35,523 nucleotides of DNA from Fidelibacterota bacterium (GTDB taxonomy: Bacteria > Fidelibacterota > Marinisomatia > SCGC-AAA003-L08 > D37C17). The notes under the pieces were generated by a model, which saw nothing but the letters and a program-made list of their open reading frames with translations, was not told the DNA's origin and searched no databases. This document shows, piece after piece, positions 1-34,093 of this stretch; the stretch's first letter is position 1; the number at the start of each line of letters is the position of its first letter. A program made the translations under genes and the position numbers. The DNA lies in NCBI GenBank assembly GCA_002718585.1, contig PBFG01000020.1:45959-81481 (forward strand), given 5' to 3'.

Positions 1-3000
1 CCATTAAATTCAGCATTTGGAGTATAGGTAGCTGTACCATCATTATTATTAACAATAAGGCCATTTATTGTAATATCAATAATATTATAGTTTAAATCAT
101 CATCATCAACATCTTCACCATTAAATGAAATAATAACTTGTGTATCTTCATCAGTAGATTCAGCGCTATCAATAGCTGTTGGAGCATCATTAACTGGATT
201 TACTGTAATCTCAACAGTTTGTGAATCTTGACCTCCAGAGCCATCAAAAACTGTTATTTCAACAGTTTCTAAACCATTTAAAGTGTTAAAATTTAAAGGA
301 GATGTTACTATAATATTTGCCTGACCTCCATCAACAGGTGTGGAATCTACAATTTCAACATCACATGATAAATTAAAACCAAGAGGATTACATGTAAAAC
401 TAAATTCATCTTCTAAATCAATATCACTTACATCAACTGAAAAAGTTCTTAAACTAACATCTACTTCATCTTCATCAAATGAAAAACTTGTGAGATTATC
501 TAAACTTAAAACTGGGGGGTCATTAACTGGATTAATAGTTATTAAAACTCTTGCCTCATTTGATTCAAGATTATTATTTGAATCAATATCATTATCTTCT
601 ACTTTAAAAAATAAACTATCAATACCATTAAAATCTTGATTCGGGTTATATGTTACGGTTCCATCATTATTATTGATAATACTTCCATTAGCCGGAGCAA
701 ATCCATTTTCAATTAAATAATATGTTAAGTCATAATTTTCAATATCAGTTGCTGATAAACTAAAAGTTGATGGGGTATCTTCACTTGTGGATGTTGAAAA
801 ATCATTTGAAACAGGTGCATCATTTATCGGATTAACAGTAACTGTTATATCTTGGGAATCTTGACCCCCATCACCATCGTTTGCAACGATCTGAAAATCT
901 GCACTGCCAAAAAAATGTTCTGTAATATTTGAAAAAATGATATCAGTACCATTCACTTCACATCCAACATTTACTCCATATGGATTACATTCATAAAAAA
1001 ATGAATTAATATCACTATCAGAATATAATGGATTAACTACATCATCAACTGCATTAACAACTAAAGTACTAGATATAGTATCCTCATCAAAAGATAAATT
1101 ATCAATAAAATCAAGTATTGGTGGATCATTAATATTATTTACACATACAATGAAATCTTGAGAGTAAGTGTCATTTGATGTTCCAGAATCATCAGTTAAT
1201 GTTAAATTAAAAACTTGTGTTCCCTTAAAATCTTCAATAGATATAAAAGTCATCTGATTTAAATCATTAGATTCATCATAAAAATTAGTTTCATTCTGAA
1301 ATAAAATTTGGTCATTTAATATATCTCCTGAGATTTCATTACCAACAGGAGTCAAAATGTAACTAATTGTTTGTTGAGGATTAACATTATAATATTCATG
1401 TGAATCTATATCAGATATGTATAAATCATATACAATAGAGCTATCTTCATTAAATTGTATTTCACAATCATCAATAAATTCAAAACTAGGTGTATCATTT
1501 ATTGGATTAACTGTAAGCAAAAATTCTTTACTAGAAGAGTTAGACTGATCCGAAACAGATACGATTACGTTTACATCACCATTCCAATCAGCCTCAGGTG
1601 TAATTGACAAAACCCACTCACCATTAATAAAGTTAGCTTCTAAAGAGGTTCCATATGAAATGTGCTGTGTATATTCATCATAAACATTAACATTTAAATC
1701 TGCAATGTTATCATCTACATCTGTAATATCTAATGATAATATAAAAACACCATCCTCATCTACATTTTGATTATCAATATTTGCAATTTCAGGAGGGTTA
1801 TTATTATTTGCATCTATAACTTCTACATTCCAGGTATATGTATCCTGTTGGGTTCCATTAACTCCGTTTTCACTATTAAAATCAATGAGTTTAATAGTAA
1901 TACTGAAGTTTCCAAGTGTATTTGGATACCATAAAAAATTAGCATACTGATTATTTGCAGTTGTTTCTATTGAACTATTTCCACCTCCAGGCTGTGAAGC
2001 TATAGAAAAATCAAACTGGATATCATCAACGTCAGCACTGGATGGATCTATTAAAAATGAGTATTCCCTATTAATTACAATAGTTGATGGAGGTGCAGGT
2101 ATATTATTCAAATTTGGTTGATCATTAATAGAAATTACAACAATTTGGAACTGTTCTTCATAACAATCTAAGCTACTATCACATGCTCTTAATATTGGAT
2201 TACCCAAACCATGCTTATTAGTATTAAAACTAATAGTCAAATCAGTACCGATAAATGAAGTGGATATAACAGTTTCAAGATCACCTAAATTTATCAATGA
2301 ATAGCTCAAATTTGGACCATCTTCAATATCATCAAAATGGTTTGATAAATCAATCGTAATAGCATTACTATCCTCATTTACAGAAATATCATTTATATTC
2401 TGAATAAGTTGTACAGAATCATTAACTGAATTAACTGTAACAGTAACATCCTGAGAATCTGATAAATTTGAATCACTTACAGTAATAGTTATAATTTCTG
2501 AACCATTATAATTCTCTGGAAAGAAAACTGTGAGCTGGCTACCATTAATAGAACACCCTATATTATTACCTTGAGGATTGCAAGCATAAGTCAAAAAATC
2601 ATCTTCAATATCCGTTGCACTTAGAATAATAATTTCAGAGTTTTCATCTTCTTGATAACTCAAATTCGGAATAAAATCTAAAACAGGAGCATCATTATCT
2701 GGAGTTACAGTAACATTAATGTTTTGAGTATCACTTCCACCATTTCCATCCTGAACAAAAATTTCAATTGATTCAGTTCCAAAATAATTAGCTGAAGAAG
2801 ACAAAGTAAGCTGACTCCCATTAACATTACAGTTAATATTACCTAATGAGTTGCATCCATAACTAAGATTATCTCCATCAATATCATTTGCTGAAATATT
2901 TATAATTACCGATTGATCTTCAATAAATGAGACATTATCAATATTTTCTAAAATTGGATTATCATTAACTGCAATAACACTAACTTGAACTATCTGACTA

Positions 3001-3599
3001 TCCGATCCACCCTGAATATCGGATACAGAAATATTAACAGATTCGGTCCCATTAAAATTTTGAGGAGACGTAAAAGTAATATTATTTTGATTCACAGAAC
3101 AATTAATATTTGCACTAATAGGATTACAATTATAAAATAAATCATTACTATCAACATCTGTTGCATTAACTGTAATCATTTGAGATTCGTCTTCGAGATA
3201 GCTAACGTTATTTATAAATTCCAATATAGGATCATCATTTACCTCAGTTACTTCTAAATTAAAAATTTCTGAATCAGTTTCAGTTCCATCTGAAACAATT
3301 ACCTCAACTTGAATAATCCCATTAAAATTAAGATTAGGCACAATTGTTAAAAGACCTTGTTGGTTTATTGATTCATTTCCATTACCATCAATATTTAAAA
3401 AATATTGTATTAAATCATTATCATCATCAGAAACAATAACATTATAAATGAAGGTTTGATCCTCTGTAACGGTCTGGTTACCAATTTGCTGAATCTCAGG
3501 AGGAGAATTCCTTAAGTTTTCTTCTGAATCACTAAATTCACTAGGTAAAATTATACTTGTAAATATTCCACTGAAAAATATAACAAGTAATTCCTTCAT
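1..3599 (-). CDS. Giant secreted tandem cadherin-like repeat protein, C-terminus beyond the left edge
   Basis: The frame is open from an ATG at 3599 to base 1, giving at least 1199 residues with no stop seen. Residues 1-20 look like a signal peptide (MKELLVIFF followed by hydrophobic residues). The rest is about twelve repeats of 85-125 residues. Each starts near a V-N-x-V/I-N-D-x-P motif followed about 15 residues later by E-D, at roughly residues 25, 120, 211, 301, 390, 491, 600, 700, 825, 925, 1025 and 1135. Many repeats end in D-G-x-G-G-x-D-S-Q. This is the cadherin-like/tandem-95 (VCBS-like) pattern of calcium-binding Ig-like domains in bacterial surface adhesins; adhesion is inferred from that family. 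At least five repeats carry a C-N-P/S-x-x...C pair. It begins 9 bases after the upstream orphan gene's stop, without a clear Shine-Dalgarno. The missing C-terminus would show the anchoring or secretion signal. Confidence 0.9.
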   Translation of the reverse strand, partial: MKELLVIFFSGIFTSIILPSEFSDSEENLRNSPPEIQQIGNQTVTEDQTFIYNVIVSDDDNDLIQYFLNIDGNGNESINQQGLLTIVPNLNFNGIIQVEVIVSDGTETDSEIFNLEVTEVNDDPILEFINNVSYLEDESQMITVNATDVDSNDLFYNCNPISANINCSVNQNNITFTSPQNFNGTESVNISVSDIQGGSDSQIVQVSVIAVNDNPILENIDNVSFIEDQSVIINISANDIDGDNLSYGCNSLGNINCNVNGSQLTLSSSANYFGTESIEIFVQDGNGGSDTQNINVTVTPDNDAPVLDFIPNLSYQEDENSEIIILSATDIEDDFLTYACNPQGNNIGCSINGSQLTVFFPENYNGSEIITITVSDSNLSDSQDVTVTVNSVNDSVQLIQNINDISVNEDSNAITIDLSNHFDDIEDGPNLSYSLINLGDLETVISTSFIGTDLTISFNTNKHGLGNPILRACDSSLDCYEEQFQIVVISINDQPNLNNIPAPPSTIVINREYSFLIDPSSADVDDIQFDFSIASQPGGGNSSIETTANNQYANFLWYPNTLGNFSITIKLIDFNSENGVNGTQQDTYTWNVEVIDANNNNPPEIANIDNQNVDEDGVFILSLDITDVDDNIADLNVNVYDEYTQHISYGTSLEANFINGEWVLSITPEADWNGDVNVIVSVSDQSNSSSKEFLLTVNPINDTPSFEFIDDCEIQFNEDSSIVYDLYISDIDSHEYYNVNPQQTISYILTPVGNEISGDILNDQILFQNETNFYDESNDLNQMTFISIEDFKGTQVFNLTLTDDSGTSNDTYSQDFIVCVNNINDPPILDFIDNLSFDEDTISSTLVVNAVDDVVNPLYSDSDINSFFYECNPYGVNVGCEVNGTDIIFSNITEHFFGSADFQIVANDGDGGQDSQDITVTVNPINDAPVSNDFSTSTSEDTPSTFSLSATDIENYDLTYYLIENGFAPANGSIINNNDGTVTYNPNQDFNGIDSLFFKVEDNDIDSNNNLESNEARVLITINPVNDPPVLSLDNLTSFSFDEDEVDVSLRTFSVDVSDIDLEDEFSFTCNPLGFNLSCDVEIVDSTPVDGGQANIIVTSPLNFNTLNGLETVEITVFDGSGGQDSQTVEITVNPVNDAPTAIDSAESTDEDTQVIISFNGEDVDDDDLNYNIIDITINGLIVNNNDGTATYTPNAEFN

Positions 3600-3608
3600 T
3601 TAATCTAT

Positions 3609-4043
3609 TTACTGATGTAGCCTAGCAGATAAGCCCTGTATTGTAAGTATGAATTTTTGAACTTCGATTTGCATTACGAATAATTCATCAATCGTATAAA
3701 ATATATCAGTAGGATATACCTCTTCATCGAAATACATCATAAAATTTGATTCAAGCTTTAATTGATACTCTCTAATTATTTCTTTTTTGCTTATTTTTTG
3801 CTTGAGGAGATTGAGTGGAAATTTTATTTGACCGTTTGATGTTAAATGAAACAAGGGTATAAGACCATAATCTATACTTTTACATTTGAAAGTCATGGTA
3901 CCATATCCTTCACCGCGACCCCATGAAACTGAATCAGCTTCATCTTCAGTAAATTTAACTAAATCTACGACTATATTAGAAATTCTAGTTTGACAAGATT
4001 CTTTTATAGTTTTAATGAATAAATCTTTATCCCACTTAGCCAA
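3609..4043 (-). CDS. Conserved-looking hypothetical protein (144 aa)
   Basis: The start is a TTG at 4043 preceded by a good Shine-Dalgarno (GAGAGGA on the minus strand, about 6 bases away), which makes this a real gene. The protein is soluble, without signal peptide or membrane segment. A central stretch (about residues 38-75) has W-G-R-G-E-G-Y-G followed by beta-rich sequence with a 'LTSNGQIKFPLN' segment. That layout resembles small domains sometimes attached to nuclease-like DUF proteins, but I cannot name a family. It lies between DUF2905 and the giant repeat protein on the same strand, 9 bases before the latter. Function unknown. Confidence 0.75.
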   Translation of the reverse strand: MAKWDKDLFIKTIKESCQTRISNIVVDLVKFTEDEADSVSWGRGEGYGTMTFKCKSIDYGLIPLFHLTSNGQIKFPLNLLKQKISKKEIIREYQLKLESNFMMYFDEEVYPTDIFYTIDELFVMQIEVQKFILTIQGLSARLHQ

Positions 4044-4124
4044 TGAAATCCTCTCTCTATTTGAATGTATAATATAAGAAATTTATTGCCTAAAATGTTA
4101 GCAAAATTTAGAAGAAGAAATGAC

Positions 4125-4494: not shown

Positions 4495-4568
<74 letters not shown>

Positions 4569-30836: not shown

Positions 30837-33194
30837 TTAATTTTCACTCATAATTATATTAACTAAAGTTACTATATCTAAAATATCTATTGTTCCATCT
30901 AAATTTAAATCAGATGCACATATCTCAGATTCTGTTAAACTATTTCCTGAAATAATAGCATTAACAATTGAAACAATGTCTAAAATATTAATAATAAAGT
31001 CATTATTGATATCTCCTAAACTACAAGATACATTACTTTGATAATAACCATTTCTCAAATAGTTTAGTCTAAATAAATTCCAATAATTATTAGAATCTGA
31101 TTGCTCTTTTATATCTATAGCTTGCATATCTCCAGTACTACCTGAAAAAATCTCTAAGTCACCATCGTTATCAATATCAGCTATATTTACGGATGATGAA
31201 AAAGCACTTGTATTTGAAATAGGCATATTATTGTAAAAGCTTAAATCATCAAAATTTCCATTATTTGATTTAAGAATATTTAATTTACCCATATCATCTC
31301 CGAAAATAATTTCAGGCAAACCATCAGAGTCTAAATCTTCAAAAACAATAGATTCAGATACAATACCAAAAAAGCTACTTTCACTAATTACGGATAAAGG
31401 AAAACCTTCCAGTAAATCACCATTTATTCCAAGTGCAAATATTTCATTATCATCATTACCAAAAAATATTTTAATATTTCCATTAAATTCTAATATTGAA
31501 GGTGAAGTATATATTGGACTACCAGAATCAAATTCAAAACTCAAATCACCATTTTCCTTAACAGCATATAATTTCCCATCTTTACTTCCTACAATTATAA
31601 TTTTCTGATTATTATAGTTTAGGATTATTGGAGCAGATCTTATTTTATCTCCAGTTTGAAAACTAAAACCAATAGAACCATCATCATAAATTAAATGGAT
31701 ATTGTCATCATCTGTTCCAATAACTATATCATCTTTTCCATTATTATTAAAATCTGCTAATGCTGCACCTTTTTGCATTTTCTCATCAAGTAGCAAAGGG
31801 AAACCATTAACATCTGAACCATCGTGATTAACTACAAATATTTTTGAATCATTTGAGAAAGATGTAAAGACAATTTCTAAATCATTATCATCATCAATAT
31901 TGCCGATTGTTGGTGTTCCAATTAGATATTGGTCTGCATCGTATTCAAATTTTATACCATTTTTATCAAAAACGTACAAATACTTACTTTTTGAAGCTAT
32001 AACAAAATCTATATTTCCATCATTATCAATATCAGCTGCTGCAGGAGACCCCCAGATTTGATTACCTGTATCAAAAGGGAAAAAATCCTCTAAAATAGGA
32101 TTACCATTTTGATCTAGTACATGAACCAAACCACTATAATCTCCAAAAATAATTTCATTATTTCCATCGTTTGTTAAATCAATTACTACAGGACTCGATT
32201 TAATTTGACTGTCAGTGTCAAATGGAAAACCTTGTTGATTTAACGAAACGTCAATATTGAATGGATAAACTTTGGTTATTTGATTGTAACTACCATCTAA
32301 ATCAATAAATTCTGCATTTACTATAAGTTCAAATTCATGTTTACCAATGAATACATCATCTCCAACAGAACCAGATAATATAACTACGCTTGATTCATCA
32401 ACTAAAATATCTCCAAAATCAAGTTCTTGATTAATGAACATAATATCATCATAATTATTAGTAAAATCGCTACTATTTTGAATAGTTGCTGAAACATTTA
32501 TAGCATCTAAATAAAAAGAATTATTTGAAATAAAAAATTCAATATCAAAAGGTTCATTAGGATTCAGTGAGTTATCTCCATCATCCTGATAACCACTGAT
32601 ACCCCCACCTCCAATGATTAAGTTTGAGTGATTAGATAAAATAAGGGAATTTTCCATATTTGATAACATTTCATCTATTATAATTGACGCATCATTAACA
32701 AACGTATTATAATATCCTGCTTCCTTGTAATGAACTCTCATTTCATGATCAATCATTACCAAACTAGGAAATGATCCTCCCGTATTAAACATGTTAAACA
32801 AAGGATAACCAGTATCATCAATAATATTAGGTATACCTGAGCTTCCGAGATTTCCCCATTGAGTACATGAATAAGGCTGATTCAAATCTGATAAAGCAAC
32901 AAATAATTTAACATAATCATTGTTTGTATAATTTTGCTCTAATTCATCAAAAAGCGGGATAAGTGATTGACAAGGGCCGCACCAAGTTGCTGACATATCG
33001 ATAACTAAAACATGGTAATTACCTCCATTTGAATTGCCATCAAAGTCTGATAGACTAAATGAGTTGTTTGATAGATTTGAACTAGGATAGCATAAATCAA
33101 ATTGTTGATTTAAATGATTATCATTAATTTTATCTCCAACATTGTAAGCACTAAAACAAAAAGAAATTATAAGTACAATTAAAATATTTTTCAT
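30837..33194 (-). CDS. Secreted thioredoxin - FG-GAP propeller - dockerin-like fusion
   Basis: 785 residues. A signal peptide (1-16, ending C-F-S-A) is followed by a thioredoxin/TlpA-like domain (about 17-185) with the active site W-C-G-P-C at 71-75. After a linker and an Ig-like segment (about 195-315), a beta-propeller is built of FG-GAP/VCBS-type repeats (about 325-710), each with a D-x-x/N-D/N-G-x-x-D/E-I-x-F/I-x-G/S calcium loop. The C-terminal dockerin-like pair of calcium loops spans 724-785 (D-I-N-N-D-F and D-L-N-L-D-G, each followed by I-L-D-I-V). Known parts are disulfide exchange, calcium-stabilised propellers and dockerin interaction modules; the combined role is unknown. Shine-Dalgarno AGGA is present. 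The gene sits 9 bases after DUF423. Confidence 0.9.
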   Translation of the reverse strand: MKNILIVLIISFCFSAYNVGDKINDNHLNQQFDLCYPSSNLSNNSFSLSDFDGNSNGGNYHVLVIDMSATWCGPCQSLIPLFDELEQNYTNNDYVKLFVALSDLNQPYSCTQWGNLGSSGIPNIIDDTGYPLFNMFNTGGSFPSLVMIDHEMRVHYKEAGYYNTFVNDASIIIDEMLSNMENSLILSNHSNLIIGGGGISGYQDDGDNSLNPNEPFDIEFFISNNSFYLDAINVSATIQNSSDFTNNYDDIMFINQELDFGDILVDESSVVILSGSVGDDVFIGKHEFELIVNAEFIDLDGSYNQITKVYPFNIDVSLNQQGFPFDTDSQIKSSPVVIDLTNDGNNEIIFGDYSGLVHVLDQNGNPILEDFFPFDTGNQIWGSPAAADIDNDGNIDFVIASKSKYLYVFDKNGIKFEYDADQYLIGTPTIGNIDDDNDLEIVFTSFSNDSKIFVVNHDGSDVNGFPLLLDEKMQKGAALADFNNNGKDDIVIGTDDDNIHLIYDDGSIGFSFQTGDKIRSAPIILNYNNQKIIIVGSKDGKLYAVKENGDLSFEFDSGSPIYTSPSILEFNGNIKIFFGNDDNEIFALGINGDLLEGFPLSVISESSFFGIVSESIVFEDLDSDGLPEIIFGDDMGKLNILKSNNGNFDDLSFYNNMPISNTSAFSSSVNIADIDNDGDLEIFSGSTGDMQAIDIKEQSDSNNYWNLFRLNYLRNGYYQSNVSCSLGDINNDFIINILDIVSIVNAIISGNSLTESEICASDLNLDGTIDILDIVTLVNIIMSEN

Positions 33195-33586: not shown

Positions 33587-34093
33587 TTAGTTTTTAAGAA
33601 TTTCTTCTGTCTTTGAATTAATTTCTACAACTTTATACCTTTGAGGAATTTGACTTAGTATTTTTTTTTCATCTATTGTTTTTTTATCAAACTCGATCAA
33701 TAAAGTTTGTTCCCTTACATCAATATCATAGTGTTCCAAACCATCTAATCCATCAATAGATTTTTCAATAGTATTCACACAACCCATACATGTCATTCCA
33801 TCAATCATATATTGCTTAACAGCAAAATTCTGAATTAAAGATGCTTTATACGGATTTGGTAAAGATTTTATTATAGTATCTGATTCAAAATTTTCATCTT
33901 CCAACAAAACTTCCATTGTTTTTGTTTCAAAATATACAGAAACTGATTTGATGCCTTCCAATGAACTTAATGAGTTTTTTATAGTTGATACGCAGCCATA
34001 GCCACACATCATTCCATTCACGCTATAGACTTGTTTTGATGTTGTTGCAAATATAAAAGTAACTGCAAATAACAAAGCTGTAATATTTTTCAT
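33587..34093 (-). CDS. Secreted tandem heavy-metal-associated (HMA) protein
   Basis: 168 residues. The signal peptide is about 1-20, so the product is periplasmic or extracellular. Two MerP-like HMA domains follow: residues 22-85 with C30-x3-C34 (G-M-M-C-G-Y-G-C) and 92-160 with the classical C102-x2-C105 (G-M-T-C-M-G-C). The family binds Cu(I), Hg(II) or Zn(II) and shuttles it to ATPases or reductases. No ATPase or reductase is in the window. The C-x3-C form resembles small HMA proteins of Bacteroidota. It is the first gene of the envelope cluster, preceded by a 122-base divergent gap. Confidence 0.88.
   Translation of the reverse strand: MKNITALLFAVTFIFATTSKQVYSVNGMMCGYGCVSTIKNSLSSLEGIKSVSVYFETKTMEVLLEDENFESDTIIKSLPNPYKASLIQNFAVKQYMIDGMTCMGCVNTIEKSIDGLDGLEHYDIDVREQTLLIEFDKKTIDEKKILSQIPQRYKVVEINSKTEEILKN

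Follow-up and report, generated by a model that had tools for sequence, protein, structure and literature searches.

A putatively exported Cys-type thioredoxin with a propeller and a dockerin in Candidatus Neomarinimicrobiota, a probable member of a mostly selenocysteine family with exchangeable C-terminal tails

Bacteria of the SAR406 group abound in the dark ocean but have not been cultivated. The window analysed here, a stretch of 35,523 nucleotides from a metagenome-assembled genome (MAG, 93% complete) of Candidatus Neomarinimicrobiota (SAR406), encodes a protein in which a thioredoxin is joined to a calcium-loop propeller and a dockerin-like end, raising the question of whether this is a genuine architecture and what a redox domain would do on such a body. 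The gene is read from the minus strand; coding on the plus strand of 30837-33194 was ruled out, with many stops found there. Its features (window coordinates) are:

30837..33194, minus strand: whole gene of the predicted exported Cys-type thioredoxin-propeller-dockerin protein (single ORF, ATG start, 785 aa)
33147..33194, minus strand: signal peptide, aa 1-16, MKNILIVLIISFCFSA (sequence; first model helix 2-13)
32652..33146, minus strand: thioredoxin domain, TlpA/ResA-like, aa 17-181 (PF00085; profile match to 4k9z; beta-alpha order in the model)
32970..32984, minus strand: WCGPC redox motif, aa 71-75, whose first Cys is replaced by predicted selenocysteine (TGA) in most relatives
32865..32879, minus strand: QPYSC, aa 106-110 (thioredoxin-family alignment)
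32763..32774, minus strand: SFPS with the cis-proline, aa 141-144 (sequence; family alignment)
32247..32639, minus strand: Ig-like beta-sandwich, aa 186-316 (strand pattern in the model)
31095..32207, minus strand: FG-GAP beta-propeller, aa about 330-700, five calcium-type loops (PF13517; Foldseek)
30855..31019, minus strand: C-terminal type I dockerin pair, aa 726-780, loops DINNDFIINILD and DLNLDGTIDILD (PF00404; model helices 737-782)

The thioredoxin domain matches PF00085 with 30 bits (cut-off 23.5; all Pfam matches of the window protein were judged against the curated cut-offs), and the W-C-G-P-C motif that the preliminary description of this DNA placed at residues 71-75 is found exactly there (window 32984-32970). 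That description had made its reading depend on a thioredoxin fold with a cis-proline; besides the Pfam match, the cis-proline is P143 of the SFPS motif (P143 and S144 are invariant in the family alignment), and the profile of the thioredoxin family matches the thiol-disulfide oxidoreductase 4k9z in the PDB (E 8.8e-9, profile positions 48-180). Residues C35 and C110 constitute a second cysteine pair, near-invariant in the aligned family. In an AlphaFold2 model (mean pLDDT 71) built from the window protein together with named relatives in Neomarinimicrobiota, the strands and helices of residues 61-181 follow a thioredoxin-type order at a pLDDT of only ~30-75; since the model is poor around the active site, the fold assignment leans more on the 4k9z match. 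The window gene product is therefore predicted, from sequence, to be a thiol-disulfide oxidoreductase of the TlpA/ResA-like type whose CGPC centre would be redox-active, and the signal peptide at residues 1-16 agrees with the exported chain proposed earlier.

The model also shows the remainder of the chain. An Ig-like sandwich (~186-316), a module absent from the preliminary description, precedes the propeller (~336-695) and the dockerin helices (737-782). The propeller is mostly confident (as far as residue 600, pLDDT by block is 82-92), has a Foldseek match to a propeller (E 1.7e-20, TMt 0.87) and is recognised by FG-GAP_3 PF13517 in four stretches (70.7 bits, cut-off 26.9) and by FG-GAP PF01839, also above its curated cut-off. 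Of six DxDxDG-type calcium loops, the propeller has five and the dockerin has one. The dockerin-like end proved to be a true dockerin (Dockerin_1 PF00404, residues 726-780, 28.6 bits, cut-off 22.9), which retains the loop ligands D1, N3, D5 and D12 and carries Phe in place of Gly6 in loop 1. The Ig-propeller-dockerin body also bears subtilase (S8), C10 cysteine peptidase and M6-type protease modules in relatives, indicating that it is a generic chassis; in genome G016 (L048 829-3237), an Omp28-type selenoprotein domain (ESWUQYC) is mounted on a body like that of the window protein. A search for the same domain order in other genomes, suggested by the preliminary description, found the full architecture in nine genomes of three genera (49-100% identity). 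Moreover, contig PANV01000037.1 of an independent MAG keeps the thioredoxin gene between the same flanking genes in the same order, with a neighbouring membrane protein 99% identical to that of the window. The architecture is consequently neither a product of chance nor, as had been feared, a chimera of two assemblies.

The relatives differ from the window protein at the active site. A single in-frame TGA interrupts each orthologue of genus g3 and most paralogues, and it falls on the first Cys of the CxxC motif (WUPSC, WUGPC, WUGSC and similar). Among the 67 distinct thioredoxin domains collected from the loci retrieved for the analysis, 53 have TGA and 14 a Cys codon at this position. A general reassignment of TGA to Trp or Gly was ruled out: each gene has one, invariably at the CxxC position, and elsewhere the codon acts as a stop, being the ordinary stop of 4 of the 31 window genes. 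Selenocysteine (Sec) genes of this kind are easily overlooked, because gene callers stop at UGA and split the protein in the middle of the active site.

Bacterial Sec insertion requires a hairpin right after the UGA. The mean folding energy of 24-base windows at +18 after the codon was -5.30 kcal/mol in the Sec genes versus -0.85 kcal/mol in the Cys genes, and -4.96 (42 Sec genes) versus -0.69 (11 Cys genes; p 1.4e-6) once near-identical sequences were removed. Replacement by synonymous codons brought the 42 Sec genes to -1.87 (s.d. 0.25, z -12.4) and had no effect on the 11 Cys genes (z 0.2), indicating that the hairpin is maintained at the RNA level, and only together with UGA. The window genome encodes tRNA-Sec (70.3 bits, UCA anticodon), located on the window's own contig, and adjacent SelA and SelB genes (operon). 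SelD, itself with one TGA, is present in 17 of the 23 family genomes, both sister species among them, and was not found in the window MAG (93% complete). The window gene itself was also considered as a selenoprotein and is the Cys form, since the codon of residue 72 is TGC and there is no SECIS-like hairpin. By contrast, the relatives and a Sec paralogue in the window genome (C4:2804-4321; 505 residues, WUGPC, T9SS tail) combine a UGA aligned to Cys, a downstream hairpin and the insertion machinery, with SelD only in the sisters.

The same contig C4 encodes a probable lipoprotein selenothioredoxin (DWUANC, lipobox-type; L081 162-995), and the Sec thioredoxin genes of relatives form clusters of three or four. 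A cupredoxin-like protein (assigned by eye) with a C-terminal dockerin lies after the DWUANC gene and upstream of the 505-residue Sec thioredoxin (L081 1004-2479). Seven changes between the Sec and Cys states, of either direction, were counted on the thioredoxin tree, which is unrooted and supports the window clade only moderately. Taken together, these comparisons suggest that the window protein is the Cys form within a family of exported thioredoxins that spans the phylum and has mostly Sec at the attacking position of CxxC.

Dockerins match 35 times in the window genome. In 27 of the 30 proteins inspected the dockerin ends within ~10 residues of the stop; in the other three it is internal twice, the protein running on to a T9SS tail, and once the frame is cut by a stop. 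T9SS tails exceed the cut-off 14 times in this genome, and SprA, a T9SS translocon protein, was detected in 21 of the 23 family genomes, the window genome included. The window protein has no T9SS sorting domain at its C-terminus, where it ends in the dockerin; a T9SS tail takes the place of the dockerin in paralogues and in one full-length thioredoxin-Ig-propeller homologue (G020), for which strict orthology is not claimed because the thioredoxin tree puts it outside the window clade. At least seven changes between dockerin and T9SS tail occurred on this unrooted tree. Throughout the genome the dockerin recurs as a C-terminal tag that can be swapped for a T9SS tail on a given module, and the suggestion that it serves as a surface or sorting tag gains from its nearly always C-terminal position among 35 copies, from this exchange and from a conserved cohesin with a T9SS tail, described below.

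Between the dockerin and the T9SS tail of Sec thioredoxins there is a conserved module of ~130 residues, with nine strands in its model (L081 ~3710-4080; L133 aa 300-410). Its reading as a second cohesin gained no support: profile comparison gave a probability of 3%, PDB sequences yielded nothing significant, and Foldseek with its low-confidence model gave mixed beta-sandwich matches, the cohesins 2xdh and 2jh2 among them.

Of 100 genomes sampled from the phylum, 49 encode cohesins that exceed the Pfam cut-off. A direct cohesin search of the window genome gave one match, below the cut-off, and a candidate (C8:68137-68847) was reached by comparing small T9SS-tailed proteins. It represents a protein of ~240 residues in which a cohesin stands between a signal peptide and a T9SS tail, and which has one full-length copy in 22 of the 23 family genomes. 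Twelve of the 16 orthologues tested match the Pfam cohesin, and against the PDB their profile finds only cohesin-bearing chains, chiefly the non-cellulosomal NagJ (E 0.002). The profile comparison of A7 with A3 was left out as evidence, because it is partly circular (A3 holds three members of the family of A7). The search for cohesin-like partners, proposed earlier, gave a candidate at the level of the family; the window genome's own copy is diverged, falls below the Pfam cut-off when taken alone and is recognised only through its orthologues. The small T9SS-tailed cohesin is the likely docking partner that the window dockerin would bind. A T9SS protein of 2824 residues contains weak tandem cohesin-like modules. 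Other Neomarinimicrobiota families encode many small single-cohesin proteins with a lipobox-like start (L215, L217-L225, L231), which are possible outer-membrane dockerin receptors.

The preliminary description further supposed that the propeller brings the thioredoxin to the cysteine-paired repeat protein at 1-3599. This was not upheld: the two genes are 27 kb apart, nothing connects them and the body also carries peptidases, so targeting is unsupported for a generic body and for a repeat protein that has a T9SS tail of its own. The repeat protein comprises cadherin-like repeats (Big_9/Cadherin_5) with paired cysteines, the T9SS tail and no dockerin; from window 3-3599 it extends beyond the window (G000:C22:40454-45958, L083), in a frame of ~3,034 residues. 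Beside it are dockerin-tagged proteins resembling, by eye, a zinc carboxypeptidase (L083 2153-4438) and a peptidyl-arginine deiminase (L083 4444-5712). Other observations on this contig were: a dockerin-tagged exported aryl-sulfotransferase-like protein (by eye) adjoining tRNA-Sec on the window's contig (L082 11391-12869 and 13498-13588, respectively); two genes upstream of the one for the thioredoxin (window 33587-34093), an exported protein in which two repeats of the heavy-metal-associated type were recognised by eye; and a minus-strand tRNA gene (window 4495-4568, Rfam 62 bits).

The explanation that we favour, and consider probable with some reserve, is that the window protein is an exported CGPC thioredoxin on an Ig-propeller chassis, held at the envelope through dockerin, cohesin and T9SS, and the Cys member of a mostly-Sec family. 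It would be exported by the Sec pathway; calcium would fill the propeller and dockerin loops as it folds; its dockerin would bind the cohesin anchored by T9SS; and the protein would come to sit at the cell envelope, most likely at the outer surface and presumably facing outward. There, the CGPC centre may exchange disulfides with exported substrates or reduce oxidants. Selenols are faster than thiols and active at lower pH, and the Sec paralogues would perform the same chemistry with these advantages. What counts against this explanation, besides the Cys codon and missing hairpin of the window gene, the below-cut-off cohesin of its genome and the absence of SelD from this MAG, is the crossing of the outer membrane without a T9SS tail: the dockerin-ended proteins might be periplasmic. 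The window protein would then be a periplasmic disulfide reductase, its dockerin bound to a periplasm-facing cohesin lipoprotein, with no display outside. Such an arrangement would suit dockerin-ended proteins that have a signal peptide only, the lipobox single-cohesin proteins in other families of the phylum, and the relationship to TlpA/ResA proteins, which are periplasmic; we regard it as unlikely, however, since the conserved cohesin of the window's own family has a T9SS tail, implying the outer surface, and the same body bears S8 and C10 peptidases, which are typically extracellular.

Alternatively, the dockerin-like end could itself direct export or sorting, as the T9SS C-terminal domain does, and not be a docking module. 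Three observations would agree with this: 27 of 30 proteins have it at their very end, T9SS tails can replace it on a given module, and proteins with an internal dockerin end in a T9SS tail instead. Yet the retained calcium-loop residues would be needless for a mere transport signal, the family conserves a cohesin with a T9SS tail, and dockerins do occur internally, ahead of a T9SS tail, which makes a pure export signal quite unlikely. That the architecture is a domain-shuffling accident without any special role, and the connection proposed earlier with the Cys-rich repeat protein (1-3599) a coincidence, appears very improbable: several unrelated catalytic modules are indeed found on the Ig-propeller-dockerin body, but the full-length thioredoxin form persists, with its active site intact, in nine genomes from three genera. 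Returning to docking through the T9SS-anchored cohesin, a broader proposal can be made tentatively, as one that is plausible and on which we would not count: Neomarinimicrobiota may use two interchangeable routes to the surface, directly by T9SS or by a dockerin clipped on to the T9SS-anchored single cohesin, and so display a large set of extracellular Sec thioredoxins. If true, selenium enzymes would be exported by SAR406 bacteria in tandem arrays and kept outside the cell through docking that depends on calcium, with a bearing on marine selenium demand and on how surface enzymes are organised without cellulose in Gram-negative-type bacteria. The exchange of dockerin and T9SS tail, together with the single T9SS-tailed cohesin, makes the partners of orphan dockerins directly testable.

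No description of a large exported Sec-thioredoxin family was found in the open-access papers searched, a scope that falls short of proving novelty; none of them links dockerins to Marinimicrobia, and the only one to bring together selenoproteins and type IX secretion concerns, judging by title and abstract, the diet of rabbits. Marine metagenomes hold Trx-like or redoxin-like UxxC selenoproteins (PMC2398784, PMC9312934), which, in the passages of these papers that were covered, share with the window family the UxxC motif and a SECIS-like hairpin just past the UGA; the same passages do not mention Marinimicrobia, dockerins or T9SS tails, and the window family differs in being putatively exported, tailed and arranged in tandem clusters. 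The NCBIfam model NF045500 represents a dockerin-tailed Omp28-related selenoprotein. Its positions 271-377 match the thrombospondin-3-like linker and dockerin of several Sec paralogues (51-58 bits), and an Omp28-type Sec domain lies on the same propeller-dockerin body in L048; however, relatives score 46-58 bits, far under the cut-off of 200, the TlpA-type thioredoxin domain is unmatched, and a search of this model with the window protein gave no match.

With the TlpA/ResA/AhpC-TSA-like extracytoplasmic thioredoxins, the window protein shares the fold, the CxPC centre, the cis-proline and the signal peptide, and the closest solved relative of its domain, 4k9z, covers most of it; it differs from them by the added Ig, FG-GAP propeller and dockerin modules, by the C35/C110 pair of its family and by the predicted Sec at the attacking position in most relatives. 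Dockerin cargo and a T9SS-anchored scaffoldin have been proposed in Cloacimonadota (PMC8542988), where, as here, signal-peptide enzymes end in a dockerin and a cohesin protein has a T9SS C-terminal domain; there the scaffoldin is a multi-cohesin protein of 3,755 residues, whereas here a protein of ~240 residues carries a single cohesin, and redox proteins are among the cargo. The clostridial cellulosome has type I dockerin and cohesin folds in common with the present system, which is set in a Gram-negative type envelope with T9SS and for which neither cellulase cargo nor a multi-cohesin scaffoldin is established. Seen against these systems, the window protein, a Cys-type, putatively exported thioredoxin from a mostly-Sec family with exchangeable surface tails, is a variation on known kinds.
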